A stretch of 63,879 bases of DNA, taken from assembly GCA_009704945.1 (NCBI GenBank), contig WLDG01000006.1, forward strand, positions 1 to 63,879. Direction: 5' to 3'. This DNA comes from Actinomycetota bacterium (GTDB taxonomy: Bacteria > Actinomycetota > Actinomycetes > Actinomycetales > Microbacteriaceae). Below the pieces are notes generated by a model, which saw only the letters and a program-made list of their open reading frames with translations, made no database searches and was not told the DNA's origin. The number at the start of each line of letters is the position of its first letter. Position 1 is the first letter of the stretch. The position numbers and the translations under genes were made by a program. Shown in pieces: positions 820 through 12,348 of this stretch.

Positions 820-1034
820 CGGGAAACCCCTGTCTGCTTTTTTGAAGTCTAGAGCCGGGCTAGTCCCTAGCCCCAACCCCAAATACGCAACTTGTTGAAA
901 ACTCAACCAATCCTGGGCTGTGAAATTCCGGGGGTTGCTCAAATGTCATTCCGACCGGCCAAAGCGTTGTAAATTCAAGAGAAATATCTGGATGATATTG
1001 GGACTGAACTTCACAAACGCCAGCCGGGGGAATT

Positions 1035-2468
1035 TTGGATCAATCGGAGAAGCCCTGCGTAGCTTGCGCTGAGGAAATCAAGAAAGATGCTGTCCTGTGT
1101 CGCTTTTGCAATACACGACAAGATGACCCCCAGTTTGCTAAGCCAGAAGTCAGCGAAAGGCTTCCGAAGCGTAAGCCTCCAAAACTACTAGTTCCTATTG
1201 CGGCGCTCGCAGTTGTTGCTGTTTCAGCAACGGCCATTCTCACAATGACAAACAGTGAAAGCGCAACAACAGAGATGGATGAAGTTGCTACCAAGCTTTT
1301 GGAAAACAGCGTCCCAGCTCCAATTTATGCTGAGAATTCGGATCACGGATATTTTTTGGAAGATAACAGAATTCCTAGACTTGAAACTTGTGAGCAGTGG
1401 GAAGACTTTTGGTTTCTAGAAGGTCCAGCGGTTGGATTCGCAGCGGCAGCTGTTTATCAAGAAATTGAAATTGCTGTTTCAACTCAGATCTACACCAAGA
1501 ATCAACATCTAGATTCAAATCTAGACGGAGTGATTTGCTTCTATGAGGAGCAGGCCAGCCCCGTTAATCCGAATGCGATTGAGGGAGTTTGGTTCACAGC
1601 TTTTGAGTCCGTCAGAGAAGGTTTGATTTCAAACATTGGTGAGCCTCACCCATTGGATTTTGCAGCGTCTCCCAGCACCGATCCCAATCATGCCGAAGTG
1701 ATTCGTAACGGCGTTGAATACGCTCTCAAGGTGTGGGCACCATTCATTGACTCTGATAGGCCGCTTGCCATGACAGTGGTTCACCCAAACGACAAGAAAT
1801 GGTTCTTAGAACGCTGGGCCAAATTAGGCAGAGACAACACTGGAGAGTTCTGGTGGAATCTAGCAGTATCAGGTGGCGGTGGAGCAGTTGGTGTAACAGC
1901 TACCGGCATCCCCAACATGTATTTCATGGCATCGGCTAGCTACCCACCACCAACCGAATCTGTTGATTACTACGTGCACGAAGTGGCCCACTTCTTTGAG
2001 TCACTCACGGTGCAAGGTGTTAGCACCCCGGATGCTCCGTGTTGGATGATTGAGGGACCTGCAACCTTTATTGGTTTTGCCATGGCTTATCCCGATGATC
2101 AGGGACGAAGCGTTTCACAGCTCACCTTCGAGAGAACCACCAGAGCTGCTGGACTGGTGAGCTACTACAACAACGGAGAAGGCCTAACTGATGGAACCCT
2201 CAGGCAAGACATCCTAAATTTCCCTCGCAATGACGACAGGTGCCAACACTCTGGGCCCCAGCTGGGTTACAACCTCGGATTATTCGTGGCAGAGCGGCTA
2301 ATCGCAGACTTTGAATTCCAGGCATTTGTTGATATCTCAGTTGCTCGTGCCGGCAGATCACTGCCAGAAACCTTCGAGCTTGTTCTCAAGAAAGATTATG
2401 TGGAGTGGGTCGACAACACCCTTCTTCCCTATCTGCAAGAAGAACTCCCTAAGCTCGCCCGCGGCTAA
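1035..2468 (+). CDS. Membrane-anchored zinc-ribbon protein with HExxH metalloprotease-like motif
   Basis: A 477-residue protein of unknown function. It has an N-terminal zinc ribbon of UPF0547 type (Cys8-x2-Cys11 and Cys22-x2-Cys25), one membrane helix at about 51-72, then a large presumably extracellular part. Around residues 158-170 is an Excalibur-like calcium motif (Asp160, Asn162, Asp164, Gly165, Cys168). VHEVAHFFE at 314-322 carries HExxH, which suggests a zinc metallopeptidase fold, but I cannot identify the third ligand. The start is TTG with a purine-rich GGGGGAA upstream at 1026-1032. It stands alone on its strand and converges on the ion-channel gene 15 bases downstream. Peptidase activity is inference from the motif only. 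Confidence 0.72.
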   Translation: MDQSEKPCVACAEEIKKDAVLCRFCNTRQDDPQFAKPEVSERLPKRKPPKLLVPIAALAVVAVSATAILTMTNSESATTEMDEVATKLLENSVPAPIYAENSDHGYFLEDNRIPRLETCEQWEDFWFLEGPAVGFAAAAVYQEIEIAVSTQIYTKNQHLDSNLDGVICFYEEQASPVNPNAIEGVWFTAFESVREGLISNIGEPHPLDFAASPSTDPNHAEVIRNGVEYALKVWAPFIDSDRPLAMTVVHPNDKKWFLERWAKLGRDNTGEFWWNLAVSGGGGAVGVTATGIPNMYFMASASYPPPTESVDYYVHEVAHFFESLTVQGVSTPDAPCWMIEGPATFIGFAMAYPDDQGRSVSQLTFERTTRAAGLVSYYNNGEGLTDGTLRQDILNFPRNDDRCQHSGPQLGYNLGLFVAERLIADFEFQAFVDISVARAGRSLPETFELVLKKDYVEWVDNTLLPYLQEELPKLARG

Positions 2469-2483
2469 CTTGAACTAGTTCTA

Positions 2484-3383
2484 TTACTTCTGCTCTAGTA
2501 GCTTCTTTAGTCTAGAAATCTCCTGCTGCAGAGCTTTGATTTCTTCTAGGGTAACAACACCATCGGCACTGATCTCATCAACGTTTTGACTGACTAGATC
2601 TAATCCCTCTGGAGCTTTCTCCTTAGCCTTAGCTTCTTCTCTTGCCTCGTCCATGGCATTTAGAACAATTCCAATTAGCAGGTTCAAGACAGTGAAGACG
2701 ATGATGAAGACATAGGAGAGCAGGAATGGGATAGCTAACCCATTAACAGCAATTGCTTCTTCCAAGTAAATGGGGAAGTTTTCAAGTGTTAAGAGAATCA
2801 CCAAGCTCATCACCGATGCCCCAATGGTTCCCCAGGCAACTGGCAACTCAGCACCAAACAAGTAAGTGCCAACCATTCCGTAGAGGAACAAAAGCAAGCA
2901 GATAAGGGCAAACATGCTCAGAAGTGGCCGCATCGACTTCACAATCGATGCACTCAAGATTCTCACCTCAGGCAAGAACCTAAAGATTCTGATCAATCTA
3001 AAAATACGCAGTAGACGCAAGATGGTGGTCTGACCGGCAAAGATTGGAGTGGCGGCAATAATCAAAAAGTCAAAGATGTTCCAGCCGCTTCTGAAGAACA
3101 TCCATGGCTTCTTGCCATAGGAAATCATTCGAACAATCAGCTCAACCACAAATATTCCAAGACAGACATAGTCGAGTGTCAGAACGAGCTGTCGGGTTTC
3201 TGGATCAATGTTGGGGAAAGTCAATATGGCTAAGCAGACCGCGTTCACCACGATCACCAGAGCAATCAGCATCTCAAAGGTGTCGCTATGGATAACCCTG
3301 GCTATTGGCTTAATGCGGTAATCAGCCAGCTTCTGAACCTCGCCATAAACCTTCACATAGTCTTTGCTACTTAGCTTTGTCAT
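2484..3383 (-). CDS. NavBac-type voltage-gated ion channel with unusual pore motif
   Basis: Single-repeat six-helix cation channel of the bacterial voltage-gated sodium channel family, about 299 residues, which would work as a homotetramer in the cytoplasmic membrane. S1-S3 occupy roughly residues 37-116. The S4 sensor (about 120-137) has five arginines every third position in LRLLRIFRLIRIFRF. S5, pore loop and S6 follow (about 152-245), then an acidic linker and a leucine-heptad C-terminal coiled coil (about 268-299). The selectivity-filter stretch reads TLENFPI (Thr199) where characterised channels have TLESW or close variants. An ATG at 3383 is preferred over GTG at 3392 because AGGTGG sits five bases upstream of it. 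Ion preference cannot be told from sequence. Confidence 0.88.
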   Translation of the reverse strand: MTKLSSKDYVKVYGEVQKLADYRIKPIARVIHSDTFEMLIALVIVVNAVCLAILTFPNIDPETRQLVLTLDYVCLGIFVVELIVRMISYGKKPWMFFRSGWNIFDFLIIAATPIFAGQTTILRLLRIFRLIRIFRFLPEVRILSASIVKSMRPLLSMFALICLLLFLYGMVGTYLFGAELPVAWGTIGASVMSLVILLTLENFPIYLEEAIAVNGLAIPFLLSYVFIIVFTVLNLLIGIVLNAMDEAREEAKAKEKAPEGLDLVSQNVDEISADGVVTLEEIKALQQEISRLKKLLEQK

Positions 3384-3495
3384 ATCCCCCACCTAGGTCT
3401 CAACAAAGCTTAATTTGAACCAGGCTAAGAAAAGTCCCTTGGTTACTTAGAGTTGGAGGCGTATTGAGCCTCAATCTGAGATGCAACATCGCCAG

Positions 3496-4095
3496 CTAAC
3501 TTGCTTTGAGAATGGGCAAAGAGATCAGATCATCCTTCCGCAGCTGCTTGCCTTTGTAGGAACCAATGCCTGCAGCATTGAGGACTTGCATTCCCTTTTC
3601 GAGACTGCCACCAAATTCATGTAGCCAAGCGGGAACAGCGTCAGGTTGAAATTGAAGCTGCAAAGTATCTTTTCCTTCTTTGCCGCCGTGTTGCGGGGAG
3701 AGCCCTTCCTTTGGAAGCGTTAGTTCACTCTTGGGGATTACCCAGCAGTTAGCAGCATCTGCGGAAAGGCCCAAACAAAGTACGTAGTCATACTCTTGGT
3801 CTCTAATCTGCTCAAACCAAAAGCTGGCGTCTTCCTTGCGTCTGGTGCAGAACTTAACTTCGATTCGATGTCCGTTGATTACCCGGTCATGGTCAGATCC
3901 GCCCAGTGGCCGAAGGACATTAAAGTCGTTGGCTCGAAATAGTTCGCTGACGAACTTGGCGCCATAGGCGCCGATGGTTGCACTTGGCATTGTGAGCAGC
4001 CAGTTAAACGGGTTGTTCTCACCAAAAGTCAGAGGCTTTGGTGCTACCTCTCTAAAAGACTCGGAAATCTTTCCGAGTAGTTCAAATTGATTCAA
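3496..4095 (-). CDS. Type II restriction endonuclease, PD-(D/E)XK fold
   Basis: A 199-residue protein beginning two bases after the methyltransferase stop, from a TTG codon preceded by AAAGG. It has a PD-(D/E)XK nuclease signature: GGSDHDR with Asp68/Asp70, then IEVKFCTRR with Glu79-Val-Lys81. It continues with FWFEQIRDQEYDYVLCLGLS and WVIPK, a string I recognise from small type II restriction enzymes. It would cut unmethylated foreign DNA at the site protected by the adjacent methyltransferase. The recognition sequence cannot be read from the protein. It is the last gene of the minus-strand arm of the island. The pairing with a methylase makes the assignment strong although the specificity subfamily is unknown. 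Confidence 0.85.
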   Translation of the reverse strand: MNQFELLGKISESFREVAPKPLTFGENNPFNWLLTMPSATIGAYGAKFVSELFRANDFNVLRPLGGSDHDRVINGHRIEVKFCTRRKEDASFWFEQIRDQEYDYVLCLGLSADAANCWVIPKSELTLPKEGLSPQHGGKEGKDTLQLQFQPDAVPAWLHEFGGSLEKGMQVLNAAGIGSYKGKQLRKDDLISLPILKAS

Positions 4096-4097
4096 AA

Positions 4098-4964
4098 TCA
4101 GCCTTTCAAAATCTTTTCAAAAATAGTTTTGTGTTCGGAGGAAATAGCTTCCAGACGTTTTTTAATCACTTCAAATGCGTCCGGGTTTTGGTCCACTAGA
4201 AGAAAGTGTCGACCTAGCTTTTTGGCTACCGCTCCAGTGGTTCCAGACCCAGCAAAGAAATCAACCACCAGGTCGCCGGGTCGGCTACTTGCTGTGATGA
4301 TCCTTCTGAGGATGCCCTCTGGTTTTTGAGTGGCATAACCGGTTTTTTCTTTACCGGTTGGGGAAACAATGGTGTGCCACCAAACGTCTGTCGGGAGCTT
4401 TCCGCGCTCTGCCTTCTCTTGTGTCACTAGGCCTGGCGCCATGTAGGGTTCACGGTCTACCTCTTCAGAATTAAAGAAGTAGTTGGGGGATTTGGAGTAA
4501 ACCAAAATGTTGTCGTGCTTAGCTGGCCACTTCTTGGTTGAGCGTGCTCCGTAGTCGTAGGCCCAAATTATTTCGTTGACGAAGTTGTCTCTGCCAAACA
4601 GGCCATCGAGCATCACCTTGGCATAGTGAACTTCCCTGAAATCAAGGTGAAGATACAAGGTTCCGGTTTCATGCAGAATCCGGTGTGCCTCTTCGAGCCT
4701 GGGTGCCAAAAACTCCCAGTAATTGGTGAATGAGTCATTGTAGGAAGTTACTGATTCACGGATTGATTCATAACTTTGCCCCTTGAATCCCTTGCGATCT
4801 CCGCTGTCAGAGCGGACGGTGCGCATGGACTCACGCTTCTGAGTCTTCCCTGTATTAAAGGGTGGATCAATGTAGACCAGCTGAACAGAGCCGGAAGGGA
4901 TATTTTTCAGCACTTCTAAGTTGTCGGCTAAATAAACATAGTCATTCATGGAGTTATCAATCAC
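4098..4964 (-). CDS. Site-specific DNA methyltransferase, beta-class (probably adenine-N6)
   Basis: AdoMet-dependent DNA amino-methyltransferase of 288 residues. Motif IV DPPF lies at residues 33-36, near the N-terminus, and motif I FAGSGT at about 237-242, near the C-terminus. That order defines the beta class, which includes N6-adenine and some N4-cytosine enzymes; DPPF and the overall look favour adenine. The central part from about 60 to 200 carries the target-recognition region. It pairs with the endonuclease two bases downstream as a type II restriction-modification unit. The start is GTG at 4964, or ATG at 4949; neither has a clear Shine-Dalgarno sequence. Seventy bases separate it from the HTH gene upstream, so it may also have its own promoter. 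Confidence 0.9.
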   Translation of the reverse strand: MIDNSMNDYVYLADNLEVLKNIPSGSVQLVYIDPPFNTGKTQKRESMRTVRSDSGDRKGFKGQSYESIRESVTSYNDSFTNYWEFLAPRLEEAHRILHETGTLYLHLDFREVHYAKVMLDGLFGRDNFVNEIIWAYDYGARSTKKWPAKHDNILVYSKSPNYFFNSEEVDREPYMAPGLVTQEKAERGKLPTDVWWHTIVSPTGKEKTGYATQKPEGILRRIITASSRPGDLVVDFFAGSGTTGAVAKKLGRHFLLVDQNPDAFEVIKKRLEAISSEHKTIFEKILKG

Positions 4965-5033
4965 CTGCTCAGCTTATTGACAGTTTGAATTGCCCCGGAC
5001 AATCGAGGCGCTATTGATGGCATCCGCAGCTTC

Positions 5034-5588
5034 CTAACTGAAACGGTTTTCTAAACTGATTGGGTTGAAGACCATTGACTTGCCAGACACAGGCTTTAGG
5101 TAGCCGTAGCGGCAAAGTCGGAAGCGAATCGCGCCGTGAGTGACACCAAGTAGCTTCGAAAGGCGTGCAATGCTTACGCCCTCAATTTTGTGGGCGTGGT
5201 TTAGCAAGGCAGTGAACTCTTCGGCCTCTTTGCGGTAGCTCTTTCCCTTACCTCTTACCTTCTGGGCAATCGGCATCAGCAGACGCAGTCGGTCTAGGGT
5301 GGAATCTGATGGAACTGTGTATGTTTTCTTCGGCTTGACTGGACGCTCTGGGGGCAGGGGCAGAGGTGCGTGCGATGGCGCAGGGGATCCTCCCAAAACA
5401 CCCGACATCTTTTTGTGAACCTGCCTCACCCCCTCCCGGCTCATGGAAATTGCGTCGCCAACTGCTGTTTGGGTCCAGCCAAGTTCCACTAGCTGGAAGA
5501 TAAGCAAATCCCGGTCAAACTTTGAGCTGCCCAGCAGCTGCGCTGCTAACCAACTGGGTAACACCTGGCGGTGTTTGATTACTGACAT
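5034..5588 (-). CDS. Protein with two helix-turn-helix motifs, putative DNA-binding
   Basis: A 184-residue protein with no family I can name. Two helix-turn-helix-like segments are visible: residues about 38-60 (WTQTAVGDAISMSREGVRQV) and about 138-162 (SIARLSKLLGVTHGAIRFRL). They are joined by a proline-rich linker (about 69-88) and a basic stretch with Lys/Arg (about 109-121). It starts 11 bases after the preceding gene, with GGAG upstream of the ATG, so it is probably translated from the same transcript. Position between the unknown pair and the restriction-modification genes suggests a local regulator, possibly acting on the inverted repeats at 7411-7454; this is inference. It is longer than classical restriction-modification controller proteins. 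Confidence 0.68.
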   Translation of the reverse strand: MSVIKHRQVLPSWLAAQLLGSSKFDRDLLIFQLVELGWTQTAVGDAISMSREGVRQVHKKMSGVLGGSPAPSHAPLPLPPERPVKPKKTYTVPSDSTLDRLRLLMPIAQKVRGKGKSYRKEAEEFTALLNHAHKIEGVSIARLSKLLGVTHGAIRFRLCRYGYLKPVSGKSMVFNPISLENRFS

Positions 5589-5599
5589 ATTTCTTTCTC

Positions 5600-6466
5600 C
5601 TATCTGTGTTCGCTGCTAAGTGCGCTGGGCCACAGCTTCTCAACCAGGTGAGAGCTGATTAATTGGAATTCTGCTCGATTGACAATTTCTGGTGAGCAGA
5701 GGGTCTTTGCTAGCTCACCAGCTGTTGTAAATTGCTTGCCGTTCCAAATTCTTAGGTTTTCTGCCGAACCAAACAGGGGCACGTCTACCTGGAAGAGCAC
5801 CATCGGATACCCGCGATGATTCGTCAGAGCTGCAAATCTTGGCAAGTAACCAATTTCGTCATCCCAGTCATCGGCATTGATACCCAGATAATCCTTGCGC
5901 TTAGATTCTGTGAAGATTTGCTTTGCACTCCACAGTCGCTTTTGCGCTTGAAGATCCAGTTTGTGAACAAAACCTGACTGCGTTTCAAGTAAAAGCACTT
6001 CTTGCTGAGTAAATTTAGCTTGGCCAGAAAGCAAATAAAAATTCTCGGAATTAGCATCGTGATGGCTGTAGGTAACCATTAGGTCATCGAACGCATATAC
6101 CAGCGCCTGCTTCAGGCTCATCTGACTGGGTCGGTTAACGAGCTTGTGCCAGCTGGGGACGTTTATGCCACCGTATAGCTTAGGCTCGAACCACCCTAAA
6201 GATTTGGGAATGTGGTGTCGATCACTTACTTCAATTACCAACACTTCGTTGAAGTGCGAAAGTTGGATTAGGAATGTCTCGGTAGCCACACGGGTGACGG
6301 ATAAAAAGGATCGGTTCTCTGGCCACTGCTTTATGTTGCTTGGAATTCCAACCAGGCAAGTTACAGGACTTAACAGGCTAGAGGACATGGCACTTTGTGC
6401 CATTACTTCAGCGAGCTCAGAGGTATCAAAGCCACTAAATCTAAGACCAAGACTTAAGTTCTCCAT
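5600..6466 (-). CDS. Unknown protein, paralogue of its upstream neighbour (island protein B)
   Basis: A 288-residue soluble protein I do not recognise; no signal peptide, membrane helix or catalytic motif is evident. It shares three features in the same order with the 303-residue protein encoded just upstream. The first is HKLVNRPSQMSLKQALVYAF at about 107-126, matching KKLV..P...SL..A in the neighbour. The second is LPR at 208-210. The third is WNGKQF at 241-246 followed by LWPSAL at 278-283. The pair therefore looks like an ancient tandem duplication. Its ATG overlaps the neighbour's stop (TAATG), implying translational coupling and matched amounts, as in a heteromeric complex. Function is open; the surrounding nucleases and methyltransferase suggest defence. 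Confidence 0.65.
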   Translation of the reverse strand: MENLSLGLRFSGFDTSELAEVMAQSAMSSSLLSPVTCLVGIPSNIKQWPENRSFLSVTRVATETFLIQLSHFNEVLVIEVSDRHHIPKSLGWFEPKLYGGINVPSWHKLVNRPSQMSLKQALVYAFDDLMVTYSHHDANSENFYLLSGQAKFTQQEVLLLETQSGFVHKLDLQAQKRLWSAKQIFTESKRKDYLGINADDWDDEIGYLPRFAALTNHRGYPMVLFQVDVPLFGSAENLRIWNGKQFTTAGELAKTLCSPEIVNRAEFQLISSHLVEKLWPSALSSEHR

Positions 6467-7377
6467 TACTCTTCCCCCTCAACCTCGACCGTGGGTAGAC
6501 CGAGTTTCACCAGAGCGTCAGGCCATAGGTCGGAAACAAATACCGGCGGTAATTCCTGTGGTCCACCAGGTTGCAGAGGCTTACATTTGTTCTTGATCGA
6601 ATCAGTAATGTGGAGCTCGTTACAGGCAACAAAGTTTTGCCCATTCCAAACCAGCACAAGCGGTTCATTACCGCTGTTATCCAGAACGAATAGATTTCTT
6701 GGCAGCCCCATGTAACAGGTCGTTGCAAAAAACATGATTTTCTTGCGATCAAGAATGGCAGCCAACCTAAATAGTTGCTTGACCGCTTCTCTAGATTCTT
6801 TTTTTGAGAATTCATCGTCAAAAGAAGAGTGCTTGAAGAACTTGCTACTAGCCGGCAGCAAATTGATTCTGTTTGAGTTTGCTGCTAGAAAGCGAGTCCA
6901 AGTTTTCGCAAGAGATTCGGAGACTTCACCGTTCTTATCCGCAATCAGAATCTGGCTGACCTCCATTTGATCGGCAACTAATAGCAGGTCCTCTACCGCA
7001 GAAAGCATCGCAATTGCGAGGCTTCGAGCATCTGGCTCATGTACCAACTTTTTTGGCCCGGAGCTAAATGAACCAGCGATCTCTTCTGCTGGCCCATACC
7101 AGTCGTTGAAAATGAAGAAATTCACCTTGGAGCCCAGGCTCTGTTTGGATGTGATCGGCGGTAGGGGAATCTCTAGGACCCAGTCCTCACCAGGCAACCG
7201 AGATACCAGCAGCGCAGGCATATCTTTGGGGTCTGCCTTGGCTGAAGGGTCCTCGAACAGCAAAGTCACCGTCTGGTGGGAAAGTAGGTGTTTGTGGAGA
7301 AGCTCCGCCACAGCCTCCAATCCAGAAGCCAGCCCAGGCTGAAGTAGAGGGTAAACACTTACTGATTTCTTTTGCAT
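6466..7377 (-). CDS. Unknown protein, first gene of minus-strand island arm (island protein A)
   Basis: A 303-residue protein without recognisable family. It contains KKLVHEPDARSLAIAMLSAV at 109-128, LPR at 225-227, WNGQNF at 244-249 and LWPDAL at 284-289, all of which have counterparts in the protein encoded immediately downstream. No membrane segment or enzyme signature is visible; the C-terminus is acidic. It is the promoter-proximal gene of a five-gene minus-strand run ending in a restriction-modification pair. About 110 bases separate it from the divergent gene at 7486, and that gap carries a TTGACA-like box and nested inverted repeats. What it does cannot be said from sequence; conserved pairing with its paralogue would be the first thing to look for in other genomes. 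Confidence 0.65.
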   Translation of the reverse strand: MQKKSVSVYPLLQPGLASGLEAVAELLHKHLLSHQTVTLLFEDPSAKADPKDMPALLVSRLPGEDWVLEIPLPPITSKQSLGSKVNFFIFNDWYGPAEEIAGSFSSGPKKLVHEPDARSLAIAMLSAVEDLLLVADQMEVSQILIADKNGEVSESLAKTWTRFLAANSNRINLLPASSKFFKHSSFDDEFSKKESREAVKQLFRLAAILDRKKIMFFATTCYMGLPRNLFVLDNSGNEPLVLVWNGQNFVACNELHITDSIKNKCKPLQPGGPQELPPVFVSDLWPDALVKLGLPTVEVEGEE

Positions 7378-7410
7378 TTTGCTCCATTTCCGAATAACTT
7401 GTGCTAGATT

Positions 7411-7454
7411 ACTTCTTGGGTAGACGTCTTGTCAAGACCCTCGAGTCAAGAAGT
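7411..7454. promoter_or_regulatory. Nested inverted repeats in divergent island promoter region
   Basis: Four copies of a TCTTG half-site lie in a near-symmetric array. Two are forward (7414-7418, 7427-7431) and two are reverse as CAAGA (7433-7437, 7447-7451). The outer arms extend to ACTTCTTG/CAAGAAGT and the inner pair forms TCTTG-T-CAAGA. On the minus strand a perfect TTGACA (-35-like) lies inside the inner repeat at 7435-7430. On the plus strand TATGAT at 7454-7459 is a plausible -10. A protein bound here would therefore touch promoters of both arms. The binder is unknown. Confidence 0.55.
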
Positions 7455-7485
7455 ATGATTTCTTTTACGAAAAGAAGGAGCACAA

Positions 7486-8238
7486 ATGTCAGAACGAAGA
7501 CTAGAAACCCTCGCTGGCCAGTTTCGCCTTGATTTTCTTGGCTACTTGGGCCCTGACAATCCTGCTGTTGGCCGGGGACAATTTGTGATCAGTGCGGAGT
7601 TCAAGGCGAGCAAGAAAGCGATTGAGGCTGAAATTCTTGTCACAGGATTCGTTCGTGATCCTGAGAACCAGTCTGAGTTTCAAACTTACTTACTACCATT
7701 GCTGAGCTTTGAGCTGCCTGTTTGGCCCCGCGAAGGTTCCTCTGAAAGATTCACCGACTACGCGAGCAAGTTGAATGAATCAGCTTTCATGGCTGAGAAA
7801 GAGTTGGAACAACTTTTCCGTCCCCTTTATGAACTTGCCATGGCATCTCAAAGAGCCGGCGGTCTGCGCGCTGTCCGAATTGGGACTTCTGAACTTGGAA
7901 ACGATCGCAAAGGCCCCAGGGAGTCAGACATCAGAGGACTGCGTCAGGATCGAAGATTTGAAATTGCACGAGCTCATTTGCAGGCTCACCAAGCTGTCCA
8001 GGAACAGCTCGTCGCGGGCACCTCACTTAAGGTCGGTCGACAGGCAAGTATCACAATCGAAGAACTTCGCTTCGCAAATCTTTATTCTCTGGCAAGAGCG
8101 ATTGGAGTCAAGGAAATTGCTCCGCGAATTCTTTCGGACGATGTTCGAGAAGTTGGATTTCAGCAAAAGATAGATCCCACGTCAGAGTTCACAGTGTTAG
8201 TTGCCCGACTCAAGAGGGCCGGCGTTATCCCTGAATAG
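7486..8238 (+). CDS. Unknown protein, first gene of plus-strand island arm
   Basis: A 250-residue soluble protein I do not recognise. It starts at ATG with a strong GAAGGAG seven bases upstream. The first 80 residues look beta-rich, the middle (about 95-125) is a helical segment, and about 145-185 is rich in Arg, Gln and acidic residues. The last 60 residues (SITIEELRFANLYSLARAIG onward) could form a small helical bundle. No catalytic motif or membrane helix is seen. It opens the plus-strand arm, followed after 46 bases by a NYN-domain gene and then a nuclease-like gene. Because the two downstream products look like nucleases, this protein may be a sensor or adaptor, but that is speculation. 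Confidence 0.6.
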   Translation: MSERRLETLAGQFRLDFLGYLGPDNPAVGRGQFVISAEFKASKKAIEAEILVTGFVRDPENQSEFQTYLLPLLSFELPVWPREGSSERFTDYASKLNESAFMAEKELEQLFRPLYELAMASQRAGGLRAVRIGTSELGNDRKGPRESDIRGLRQDRRFEIARAHLQAHQAVQEQLVAGTSLKVGRQASITIEELRFANLYSLARAIGVKEIAPRILSDDVREVGFQQKIDPTSEFTVLVARLKRAGVIPE

Positions 8239-8284
8239 AGATCCGTCCCAAAACTACCTTGTTTGACCAATAGGAGGTGTCAAC

Positions 8285-8761
8285 ATGAATCAAAAAAGTA
8301 AGGCCGCACTCAAGCCCAGCAGAAGCGTGCATCTAATTGATATTGAAAACATATGTGGGGCCTCGAACCCCACAACGGAACAGGTTGTGCAGGCTCGCGA
8401 GTCATATCTCTCACTCGTGAAGCCAGGCTCTCTCGACCAGTTTTTCATCCGAGTGAGTTCACGTTCAAACTTGGCCGCTGCATCCTTTGGCTGGCCCAAT
8501 GCCAGAGTTCAATGCAAAGAAGGGCATGACGGGGCTGACATTCTCATTGCGAGGGATCTCCTTGACAACAAGTTTGAACAGACCTTCAAAACGATTTACC
8601 TTGCAAGCGGTGACGGAGGCTTGGCTCCTTTTGCCAAGCATGTTGTCAGTCGCGGTGGCACCGTTGCAGTCATTTCGTTGCCACAAGCTCTAAGCATGCA
8701 AATGCGCTTCACTGGTGCAAAAGTGCTTTACCTCAATGCGGGAAATGGCCTAGTGCCGTAA
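8285..8761 (+). CDS. NYN (PIN-like) domain protein, putative ribonuclease
   Basis: A 158-residue single-domain protein of the NYN/PIN-like nuclease fold. The acidic metal-binding positions are visible: VHLIDIENI with Asp19 and Asn22, GHDGADILIARDL with Asp82/Asp85 and Asp91, and YLASGDGGLAPFA with Asp110. Proteins of this fold cleave RNA, often tRNA or mRNA, in toxin or RNA-processing roles. The ATG has one of the best Shine-Dalgarno sequences in the island, AGGAGGTG. It lies between an unknown gene and a coiled-coil PD-(D/E)XK gene, so it is probably part of one transcript and a functional unit with them. Its target is not predictable. The fold assignment is strong, the biological role open. 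Confidence 0.82.
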   Translation: MNQKSKAALKPSRSVHLIDIENICGASNPTTEQVVQARESYLSLVKPGSLDQFFIRVSSRSNLAAASFGWPNARVQCKEGHDGADILIARDLLDNKFEQTFKTIYLASGDGGLAPFAKHVVSRGGTVAVISLPQALSMQMRFTGAKVLYLNAGNGLVP

Positions 8762-8853
8762 GCAATTTTCAAAGTGGAGTTACGTCCGCTGCAAACGCAC
8801 GTGACCTGGACACAAGCAACCAAAAGTTTTACCCCAACTAAGAAAGTAGAAAA

Positions 8854-9972
8854 ATGCTAAGTTACAAAATAGATGGTTCGACAATTCGAATCACAGACTT
8901 TGAATTCACCAATCCGGTCCTGGTCAAGTACCTAAGCTCAATCCCCGGGGAAGATCAGGCTAGTTTTCTAAATGAGGCTCTTGAGTTTGGACTGAACACT
9001 TTGGCTACCGTGTCTAGCCAGGCAGAAGTTAGGGAAATTGAGTCAGCACTCAAGAAAGTTCGGGAAGAACTAGAGAAAACCCAGGGTTCCGTTGTTCAGG
9101 AGATGCAAAAGACTTTCAATAATCAGCTTGACGAAGGAAACAAACTGTCTTTGATATCAGTGTTCAAAGAGAAGATACTCAGGGAAATTGTTGATGAACT
9201 GAGTCCAGATTCAGAAGGTAGCCCCTTTGCGTCAATCAAGAAGGACCTCGAGAAGGTCATTGAACAACTACAGGCGAAAAAGGGAGCCAAGTCTGTCGAG
9301 TCCAGAACAGCCGCCAAGGGAACAGCTTTTGAGTTGGACGTGGATGCGCTTGTTAAAAGTGAAAGCATGCGCCATGGTGACTTAGCAGAGTTCGTCGGCG
9401 CCGACGGCGGCGGCTCCACGCAAGTTGGCGACACCATGGTCACTTTCGCCGAGGCTTACAACTCCTCCGGCTCTGAGTTCAAAGTTATCTGGGAGGCGAA
9501 GACTCAAAAGAAACCTTTCAAATCCGAAAAGGGTTTTCTGTCTGTGTCAGCTGTCTCCCAAGAGTTAAATGCTGCGATGGAGCACCGCCAAGCAGATTGC
9601 GCCATTTTTGTCGCAGATTCAGATGGATTAGACAACCAACCGGAATGGCAGGAGTTTCACGGGAACAAGCTGATGCTTGTTCTTGATCGAGATGAGCCAG
9701 ACCAAAGATTGGTGAGATTGGCATATCTATGGAGCAAATCAGTTGCAGCTAGAAAACGAACGTCTGAAAACTCTCTAAATTTGGGGAAAGTTGAAAGCCT
9801 GCTCACGAGTTTGCAGACTGAAGCAAAATCCATTACTGCTTTGAAAAAGCACCACACAATGATCGAATCCGGACTCAACTATTCAAAAGCTTGGGTGGAA
9901 GAGCACGGACAAAAATTCGATCAACTATATGAAGATCTCCATGCAGAGCTACTTGCTCAAGAAGAAAGCTGA
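8854..9972 (+). CDS. Coiled-coil protein with PD-(D/E)XK nuclease-like domain
   Basis: A 372-residue protein. Residues about 1-55 form a small N-terminal part and about 57-145 are strongly charged and helical, likely coiled coil. Residues about 150-260 resemble a PD-(D/E)XK nuclease domain of the DUF2130/RmuC-like sort: Glu160 in GTAFE, Gly192-Asp193 after GGGSTQ, then Glu214-Ala-Lys216 in VIWEAKTQKK. The C-terminal 100 residues are again helical. DUF2130-type proteins are thought to act on DNA, but their roles are poorly known. It follows the NYN gene by 92 bases, with only a weak AGAAAG before its ATG. In this island it is a good candidate for a DNA-cutting effector or a repair nuclease. 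Confidence 0.68.
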   Translation: MLSYKIDGSTIRITDFEFTNPVLVKYLSSIPGEDQASFLNEALEFGLNTLATVSSQAEVREIESALKKVREELEKTQGSVVQEMQKTFNNQLDEGNKLSLISVFKEKILREIVDELSPDSEGSPFASIKKDLEKVIEQLQAKKGAKSVESRTAAKGTAFELDVDALVKSESMRHGDLAEFVGADGGGSTQVGDTMVTFAEAYNSSGSEFKVIWEAKTQKKPFKSEKGFLSVSAVSQELNAAMEHRQADCAIFVADSDGLDNQPEWQEFHGNKLMLVLDRDEPDQRLVRLAYLWSKSVAARKRTSENSLNLGKVESLLTSLQTEAKSITALKKHHTMIESGLNYSKAWVEEHGQKFDQLYEDLHAELLAQEES

Positions 9973-10053
9973 GTCTCTCCTTGAGGTGCAAGTCTCGAGG
10001 CAGAGAAATAAATTGCTCTACGGGCGATAATTAGCAATGACCTGTCGAGTTTC

Positions 10054-12348
10054 CTAAACGGCCACAAGCGGTTGCTGCCAAGCTCTTCTTACATCGCTTA
10101 GCGGAAGCTTGGCAATGCCTTGAATGTCAATTGCTTGAGATTCCTTATCGGTGACGCCAATTCTCAGAACCGGCACTCCCCTTGCTTCGCAGAGCGCTTG
10201 GAACTTCACATCGTCCTCTCGACCCACTGTCACGATTGCTCTTGACTGAGATTCAGAGAACAGCGCTGCTGTTTGGTCTAATCCGTCTCGCTCCATGAGT
10301 TCTGTGATCCAGATTCGGCAGCCAATGTTGAATCTCAGACTTGCTTCAATAACAGCAACAGCGAGACCTCCTTCAGAGAGATCATGAGCTGCTTCGATAA
10401 GTCCCTGGATGGATGCTCCATGAATCAGCTCGGCTAGGTCTCTTTCTTTTTTGAGATCCAGCCTTGGTGGTTTTCCACCCAGGTGATCATGGATGTCCTT
10501 AGCCCAGGCAGAGCCGTCTAGTTCGTCATAGGTTGTGCCAAGCAAATAAATGTTGTTGCCATCGTCTTGCCAGCCAGAAGGAATTCTTCTTGCCACGTTG
10601 TCAATCACACCCAGCACTCCAACCACTGGGGTTGGGTAGATGGCTTGGTCACCGGTTTGGTTATAGAAGGAAACGTTTCCACCGGTGACTGGGATTCCCA
10701 GTTCCTGGCAGGCATCAGCAAGCCCTGCTGTTGCCTGCTTGAACTGCCACATCACTTCTGGGTTTTCAGGAGAGCCAAAGTTTAAACAGTTGGTTACTGC
10801 TCTTGGCACTGCTCCAGTCACTGAAACATTTCGGTAGCTTTCGGCAAGAGCAAGCCTTGCTCCCTCATACGGGTCTAGGTAGCAGTACTTGCCATTGGCA
10901 TCGGTTGCGAGCGCTACACCAAGTCCTGTTTCTTCATTGATTCGGATCATGCCGGCATCATCTGGCATGGCAAGGGCTGTGTTGCCCATGACGTATTTGT
11001 CATACTGCGATGTCACCCAAGACTTATCTGCCTGGTTAGGGGAGGCAATCAGCTGCATGATTTGAGTCGCCAGCTCTGTTTCGTTTTCTGCTCGCTTTAG
11101 TTTCTTGGAGCTGTCACTGTTTAGGCTGTCTTGGTATTTGGGGTATTCGACGGGTCTGTTATAGACAGGGCCATCGTGGGCAACGGTCCTAGGTGGCACG
11201 TTGACGATTTCTTCTTTGCCCCAGTTGATATAGAGCCTGTCTTCACCAATTACTTCGCCAAGAACCGAGTACTCAACTTCCCACTTCTCAACGATCTTTT
11301 TGAAATCCTTTAGTTTCTTCTTTGGAACAATCGCGCACATTCTCTCCTGTGATTCGCTCATCAGGATTTCTTCTGGTGTTAGGTTCTCATCTCTAAGAAG
11401 TACGTTCTTGAGTTGTATTCTCATGCCCATGCCACCGTTTGAGGCAAGCTCTGATGTGGCGCAGGATATGCCAGCACCACCAAGGTCTTGAATACCGGCA
11501 ACTGAGCCGGATTGGAAAAGCTCTAGGCAGCACTCAATCAAAACTTTTTCGGCAAATGGATCTCCCACCTGCACAGCAGGTCGCTTAGTTGGTCCGGTTG
11601 AATCAAAGCTTTCAGAGGCGAGGACGCTCACGCCACCAATGCCATCTGCTCCGGTTCTTGCACCAAACAGAATTACTAGATCTCCCTTGTTGGAGGCTTT
11701 AGCGAGTTTGAGATCTTCGTGCTTGAGAGCTCCAATGCCAAGGGCATTGACAAGCGGGTTTCCCTGATAAACCGAATCGAATACTGTTTCTCCGCCAATG
11801 TTTGGCAGTCCCAGGCAGTTGCCATAGAAGGAGATTCCGGAGGTTACGCCGTTGAGAACTCTGGCGGTGTCGGGGTGATTGGCAGAACCAAATCTGAGTT
11901 GGTCCATAACTGCTACTGGTCTTGCCCCCATTGCCAAGATGTCTCTGACAATTCCTCCCACTCCGGTGGCAGCGCCTTGGAAGGGTTCAATGTAGGAAGG
12001 GTGGTTGTGGCTTTCAACTTTGAAGGTGACAGCTAGTCCTTCACCGATATCAACAACACCTGCGTTTTCACCTATGCCAACCATCAGGTGCTTCTTCATT
12101 TCAGGCGTTACTCTTTCACCAAACTGGCGCAGGTAGATCTTGGAGGACTTGTAGCTGCAGTGCTCGCTCCACATCACCGAATACATAGCTAGCTCAGAGG
12201 AGGTTGGCCTTCTGCCCAGGATCTCTCTGATTTTTTGGTATTCGTCCTCTTTGAGACCCAGCTCTTTCCAAGGTTGTTCTTTTTCTGGGGTTTGGGATGC
12301 GTTTAGAACAGTGTCAACACCCGATGGTTTCTTCTTTTTCCAAAACAT
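10054..12348 (-). CDS. purL: Phosphoribosylformylglycinamidine synthase II
   Basis: Large subunit of FGAM synthase, converting FGAR + ATP + ammonia to FGAM in step four of purine synthesis. At 764 residues it is the short Gram-positive/actinobacterial form that needs separate PurS and PurQ. Recognisable signatures are [10 protein letters not shown] near residue 60-70, [25 protein letters not shown] with the metal and ATP-binding positions, and [12 protein letters not shown] in the second AIRS-like half. It starts at an ATG sharing one base with the purQ stop (TGATG). It is the last gene of the purS-purQ-purL operon and converges on the island gene ending at 9972. The first 20 residues are a charged extension relative to many homologues. 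Confidence 0.97.

Follow-up and report, generated by a model that had tools for sequence, protein, structure and literature searches.

The stretch of DNA analyzed here, the window, is a 63,879-nucleotide contig (WLDG01000006.1, assembly GCA_009704945.1) from a freshwater, Aquiluna-like member of the Microbacteriaceae, whose genome is assembled as 1.14 Mb in 36 contigs and is 85.8% complete. Toward its left end lie eight open reading frames (ORFs) in two divergent arms, which an earlier note read as possibly one undescribed anti-phage system attached to a restriction-modification (R-M) unit. All eight ORFs are present on the strands and at the coordinates given there. We found that they make up a mosaic, in which four genes, U250, A, B and HTH (for helix-turn-helix), keep their order in a second genome, and in which the HTH protein is kin to a DNA-binding protein of phages. 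The features are as follows.

3496-4095, minus strand: REase, restriction endonuclease of the R-M pair (PADLOC PDLC03515; PD-(D/E)XK motif read from the sequence)
4098-4964, minus strand: MTase, the DNA methyltransferase partner in the type II R-M pair (N6_N4_Mtase; PADLOC PDLC03300)
5034-5588, minus strand: HTH, 184 aa, core gene of phage type, with two helical DNA-binding units in the model
5600-6466, minus strand: B, 288 aa, core gene, paralogue of A, no family match above threshold
6466-7377, minus strand: A, 303 aa, core gene and paralogue of B, without a family match above threshold
7378-7485: divergent intergenic region between A and U250, 108 bp, with only a 7-bp inverted repeat
7486-8238, plus strand: U250, 250 aa, divergent core gene, no family match above threshold
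8285-8761, plus strand: NYN-domain putative RNase, modular, outside the conserved core (Pfam NYN, 25.6 bits)
8854-9972, plus strand: PDx, coiled-coil PD-(D/E)XK-like protein, modular (DUF2130 below threshold; motif read from the sequence)

In the minus-strand arm, A and B overlap (spacing -1 bp), and the gaps are 11 bp between B and HTH, 69 bp between HTH and MTase, and 2 bp between MTase and REase.

The second carrier of the core, G010, is a genome of the same genus, Aquiluna, which is itself a member of the Microbacteriaceae. On an 18-kb contig (18,084 bases) of this draft assembly, a 277-residue homologue of U250 lies divergent from A, B and HTH, with the order kept. The G010 proteins match those of the window for A (E 4e-11; local alignment z 23.7), for B (E 2e-29; z 54.4), and for HTH (49% identical). 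The match is weakest for U250: the local alignment gives z 3.8 and a score of 55, which the top one of 300 shuffles exceeded (58), and the global alignment gives z 4.6, with none of 1000 shuffles as high; of the 11 ORFs on its contig that are 180 aa or longer, the G010 copy matches U250 best. A single-sequence U250 search of 22 genus genomes found only the window's own genome and missed the G010 copy, which was recovered through synteny. Searches with A found two carriers in 59 genomes, the window's own and G010, and searches with B found two carriers among the 22 genus genomes and two matches among 396 genomes of the order, one being the window's own. The other, in genome G707, was dropped as a 44-residue frame with two stops. 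No relative of B was found in plasmids with the window and G010 copies as queries, and none of U250 in phages. Among 48, 33 and 57 pattern stretches in viral contigs, respectively, there were no relatives of A, B and U250; the viral-contig scans use exact patterns, built for these three proteins from two-row alignments, and thus miss distant or divergent relatives.

A and B, which the earlier note had described as paralogues, are indeed related to one another (BLAST E 4e-7; profile-profile comparison 94%, E 1e-7), with the C-terminal pattern G.P...W.G..F common to both. Window proteins were scanned against Pfam, NCBIfam, PADLOC-DB 2.0.0 and PHROG, and A, B and U250 had no match above threshold in any of these four libraries, the best being that of U250 to Cas5d (E 0.02). 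The PADLOC-DB 2.0.0 scan, a check that had been suggested beforehand, recognized the R-M pair and returned no family for A, B or HTH, and for U250 only the weak Cas5d match. The model of B is poor (mean pLDDT, the predicted local distance difference test, 53), and a search of PDB sequences with the A/B profile returned three weak matches, all to guanylate cyclases, the best at E 0.013. By eye, the N-terminal helix-strand order and a GWxxP-type motif of B are similar to those of the chaperone-like TY-Chap families of ADP-ribose conflict systems (PMC9503650). The comparison of A/B with four TY-Chap3 sequences was weak, at E 0.053, and one of 100 shuffles did better (0.048); there is no Pfam match to TY-Chap for A or B, and we keep the likeness as a lead only. 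Word searches of open papers returned no description of the core or of host copies of the phage HTH family, which is weak evidence of absence. We read the core as undescribed; taken as a whole, the island is of an ordinary type.

What surrounds the core differs in G010. There, HTH is followed not by an R-M pair but by a 1168-residue PD-(D/E)XK/RNase H/SF1 helicase, and the same contig encodes an OLD/AbiEii-like ATPase, a Schlafen-group helicase (with an additional sub-threshold GIY-YIG match), and a SinI-type R-M system, with no match to the window REase, MTase, NYN or PDx. Orthologues of the window R-M pair are present in G010 on another contig, C1 (L148, 8 kb), which encodes a REase homologue 40% identical to that of the window, as well as a phage-type integrase and an AspBHI-N/Mrr-like protein. 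Reckoned from the contig ends, the distance between this pair and U250 is about 3.7 kb or more, and the pair cannot sit directly after HTH. As a separate observation, the C1 set of integrase, R-M pair and AspBHI/Mrr-like enzyme resembles a small mobile defense element.

Because synteny of U250, A, B and HTH is kept in G010 and the other genes occur apart, the conserved unit is these four genes, and the other four look modular. The idea that all eight form a single anti-phage system, every part acting with the R-M unit, draws on the tight gene order in two divergent arms, and on genome G110, in which NYN and the start of a partial MTase homologue, located where the stretch ends, are about 5 kb apart. 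However, the four cargo genes are missing from the G010 core contig and the R-M orthologues lie elsewhere, NYN occurs without the core, and PDx has relatives in other places. A single eight-gene system is thus largely contradicted by the G010 split, and we consider it very improbable. The prediction of an undescribed defense system holds insofar as this is a defense-type island with an undescribed core, and fails as to one system attached to R-M; what recurs is the core, not the set of eight.

Unexpectedly, HTH is a protein of phage type, which is not visible from the window sequence alone. The AlphaFold2 model, built on 48 rows (pLDDT 92.8), has two helical DNA-binding units, in line with the double-HTH protein that had been described. 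HTH is 38-53% identical to phage proteins. In viral contigs, a two-row HTH profile yielded 86 relatives from 204 candidate stretches, of which 80 loci, near-duplicates included, were kept. The large terminase subunit (TerL) was matched in 69 of the 80 (phmmer, one TerL query), always downstream and on the same strand, at distances ranging from overlapping frames to 6.5 kb, and within 300 bp in 24; on one contig, TerL and portal were verified by PHROGs. Among 50,697 phage records, seven match HTH, all from Microbacterium phages, two being the same phage. In the cellular genomes searched, the family almost never turns up: in the phylum (396 genomes) only the window's own HTH was found, and in the family (398 genomes) its own and one weak match (G356, E 5e-10), which was not counted as a core carrier, the surrounding stretch being without matches to A, B or U250. 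G010 is not among the matches of this family sample and was presumably not drawn, so genome samples of that kind can miss core carriers. A scan of genome contigs with exact patterns, which would overlook divergent copies, found one relative, on the G010 contig, an earlier such scan with HTH alone found nothing, and no relative was found in plasmids.

Conservation between bacterial and phage proteins is uneven along the sequence. Compared with the phage consensus, the window HTH is 20% identical over residues 1-25, 41% over the first HTH unit, 30% over the linker, 66-70% over the helix pair and the second HTH unit, and 44% over the tail. The second recognition helix is kept, with 14 of 16 residues identical to the phage consensus in the window and 15 of 16 in G010; in the N-terminus, first unit and linker the bacterial proteins are 20-49% identical to it. 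Phage proteins compared with their own consensus follow the same gradient (50, 64, 49, 84-87 and 67%, with 91% in the helix). A 71-row tree, unrooted, unites the two bacterial HTHs in a single clade (96/95) on a long branch among the phage rows, and their exact position is unsure given the length of that branch. The HTH of the window is a relative of a DNA-binding protein that phages encode upstream of TerL, and it probably descends from that protein, transfer having presumably been from phage to bacterium. The phage HTH proteins of IMG/VR contigs and of Microbacterium phages such as Cece, Pumpernickel and A3Wally have the two-domain layout of the bacterial protein and a nearly identical recognition helix; they differ in that the bacterial HTH gene forms a run with A and B, and neither a terminase nor a portal homologue was found.

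From sequence comparison, the phage protein could be either a small terminase (TerS), a late-gene regulator, or another regulator, and gene position near TerL alone cannot separate a small terminase from a regulator. Sigma70 region 4 matches the N-terminal unit in 47 of 48 family members at E 0.01, the window's own match being below threshold, and PDB matches of the family are mainly sigma factors. At the same cut-off, other PHROG matches are to generic HTH (40/48), repressor (23/48) and late activator (3/48) families; the window HTH itself has no PHROG match at E 0.01. When 73 regions preceding the phage HTH gene, 42 of them non-redundant, were searched for a motif, gapped words came out above the shuffled control; these were dropped because the twelve regions inspected resemble, for the most part, the coding end of the preceding gene.

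Two observations on the phage loci stand apart. A second, weaker HTH match is present in 21 of the 80 viral loci (for example L012:7840-8364): in 10 of these it precedes the main gene by about 2 kb, and in the other 11 it follows, mostly at 3-4 kb; in one such pair, the main and second proteins are 30% identical. In a 154-kb contig (IMG/VR 3300034073_002585, L011:10778-13743), a Pfam peroxidase gene, catalase-peroxidase-like (729 aa), and a heme oxygenase gene (217 aa) lie between the phage HTH and TerL, which are unexpected neighbors for packaging genes.

The reading that we favor, its chances of being right and wrong evenly balanced, is that of a mosaic defense-type island whose core is an anti-phage module with the phage-type HTH as lure or sensor. 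Defense is what we infer as the most likely function of the core, which adjoins R-M or other defense-type genes in both carriers. During infection, HTH would bind the same phage sites as the phage protein. As a lure, it could compete with the phage protein late in infection and spoil packaging or late expression; as a sensor, it could mark the phage genome and flag infection. A and B may relay or license HTH action, forming the link, and U250 may be a regulator or effector. The nuclease genes beside the core would be exchangeable, differing between genomes. In its most specific version, which we offer tentatively and regard as rather unlikely, a phage late-gene or packaging protein has been domesticated as the core of the module, together with two paralogues, a divergent fourth gene, and exchangeable nucleases.

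The main rival holds that HTH is a local regulator of the two divergent arms, controller-like and of phage type, and that the core as a cassette serves regulation or stress, with an accidental link to defense. Divergent gene arms are often under a common regulator. HTH ends the A-B-HTH run, 69 bp ahead of MTase, and the sigma region 4-like N-terminal domain and the repressor matches of many family members also fit this role. No operator was found between the arms, although a non-palindromic site would escape this search: region 7378-7485, which the earlier note regarded as operator-like, has no dyad beyond the 7-bp inverted repeat (at 7460), and the longest word in common with the G010 equivalent is a 9-mer at the start codon, so that description is not borne out. 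Across 3400-10060, there are 7 promoter-like sites compared with a shuffled mean of 4.8 (sd 2.1), and 11 terminator-like sites compared with 8.3 (sd 2.7), so that both counts are close to those of shuffled sequence. Moreover, no HTH match was found on the 8-kb G010 contig with the orthologous R-M pair, the core being on another contig, and HTH is therefore not tied to that R-M; a controller protein of an R-M system travels with its pair, which HTH does not. We regard regulation of the arms as possible but doubtful.

A different explanation takes the core to be what is left of a phage satellite or prophage with a small-terminase-like gene of its own. Phage satellites are known to use TerS, and the phage relatives of HTH lie upstream of TerL. 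In neither the window nor the 18-kb core contig of G010 did phmmer, given a single query for each, find a homologue of integrase, terminase or portal, a search that could miss distant integrase, TerL or portal forms, and A, B and U250 were not found in viral contigs by the exact-pattern scans. Candidate attachment (att) repeats are imperfect pairs only, such as one of 22 nt and 82% at 1330 and 10146, both intragenic, in a search with no chance control. The remark that the region has no transposase or att site mostly holds, with imperfect repeats only, and no search was aimed at transposases. The core thus differs from phage-inducible chromosomal islands (PICIs) and similar satellites, in which integrase and attachment sites are expected. 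The likeness that remains is that of a protein of a host-resident element interfering with packaging; satellites blocking the phage small terminase are mentioned in PMC10884400. A satellite remnant seems to us distinctly unlikely.

Several points weigh against an anti-phage module with HTH as lure or sensor. The core is present in just two genomes, and two contexts are therefore all that connect it with defense genes. A, B and U250 are without a known family, and the anti-phage role is predicted from sequence and context. Eleven of the 80 viral loci have no TerL match, and in the three annotated Microbacterium phage regions read, no terminase is present within 5 kb. The TerS family phrog_7067 is matched by 8 of 48 HTH family members (best E 8e-4, cut-off E 0.01), and with sigma70 region 4 matched by 47 of 48, a transcription regulator fits equally well. 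The recognition helix is the most constrained part among phage proteins (mean 91% to consensus, compared with 49-64% in the N-terminus, first unit and linker), and that it is conserved does not necessarily imply an identical DNA site. Bootstrap values in the tree are unsettled and the bacterial rows are long branches, and an HTH of cellular origin, later transferred to phages, is a further alternative.

If the core does confer phage protection, it would represent a chromosomal defense unit employing a packaging or late-gene protein of phage type outside any prophage or satellite recognized in this analysis, in a bacterium with a genome assembly of about 1.1 Mb. It would also provide a concrete target, namely a phage protein family found in 86 viral contigs, the host copies of which keep the recognition helix. 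If the core is not protective, the island is still a mosaic, and its R-M, NYN and PD-(D/E)XK neighbors should not be read as one system.

Among these neighbors, the R-M pair is of type II with a methyltransferase of the N6/N4 kind. The beta class assigned to MTase agrees with its Pfam match (N6_N4_Mtase, E 8e-49) and with the motif order read from the sequence, DPPF preceding FAGSGTTG; PADLOC matches it with PDLC03300 (E 3e-144), and its closest PDB matches are M.RsrI and MboIIA. REase has a clear type II match (PDLC03515, E 1e-35) and also matches a PHROG annotated without function (E 1.5e-12), with no match in Pfam, NCBIfam or PDB and no relatives in a plasmid search. The pair resembles known type II systems in that its MTase and REase genes are neighbors and PADLOC matches both strongly; it differs in that an unrelated core module lies ahead of it on the same strand. 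Of the two proteins to which PD-(D/E)XK signatures had been given, REase has the PADLOC match and PDx has sub-threshold matches only; both motifs were read from the sequence.

The NYN RNase-like assignment is upheld by a margin of 1.4 bits (25.6 bits, with a Pfam cut-off of 24.2). Matches to NYN are present in 8 of 219 family genomes, the window's own included, and the core accompanies it in none of the four contexts seen elsewhere. The Microbacteriaceae islands with NYN/LabA-type RNases and nuclease-helicases, which we take to be TM0106-like, are similar in that NYN is above the Pfam cut-off, and different in that NYN here is outside the four-gene core. In one such island (genome G011, L149:4765-8939), a NYN gene 52% identical to that of the window lies about 15 kb 3´ of purL and diverges from a gene for a nuclease-helicase, which shares 31% identity with that next to the core in G010; this pair may be a unit of its own.

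For PDx, DUF2130 scores 17.9 bits (Pfam cut-off 26.7), and the protein was found in 1 of 219 family genomes, its own; a scan of viral contigs found no relatives. Relatives are present on five haloarchaeal plasmids, with 24-25% identity over 78-92% of PDx, one of them annotated as a restriction endonuclease. In two of three contexts (L157 and L158), these adjoin AAA, VWA and MBL-fold genes (the VWA and MBL domains were domain-checked for one), and they possibly form a conflict system of their own.

The island lies at a site 3´ of purL that is hypervariable in the genus (window 1000-10050). A purL match is present in 21 of 22 genus genomes, and 3´ flanks (L120-L135) were compared for 16 of 20 relatives, leaving out G006, G010, G016 and G020; 13 of the 16 flanks are at least 5 kb long. 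Few genes are common among them, and none has a match to any of the eight genes (0/16, E 1e-5, pruned ORFs). The designation of a defense-type island is supported, with the core beside defense-type genes in both carriers and at a hypervariable site. Base composition shows no clear break across the window. The gene at the left end of the window is pckG, and in genomes G015 and G017 pckG precedes purL with 843 and 836 bp between them and no frame of more than 90 residues, a near-empty version of the site. Of 22 genus genomes, 2 have the ion-channel gene (2484-3392), which in the genome other than the window's own is distant from purL; the variable stretch therefore probably starts near position 1000. 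This gene and one for a 477-aa protein with a sub-threshold zinc-ribbon match, which together occupy 1035-3392, seem to be members of the variable stretch. Both near-empty sites (L126 and L129) contain a short frame, about 79 residues from ATG, that is alike in the two.

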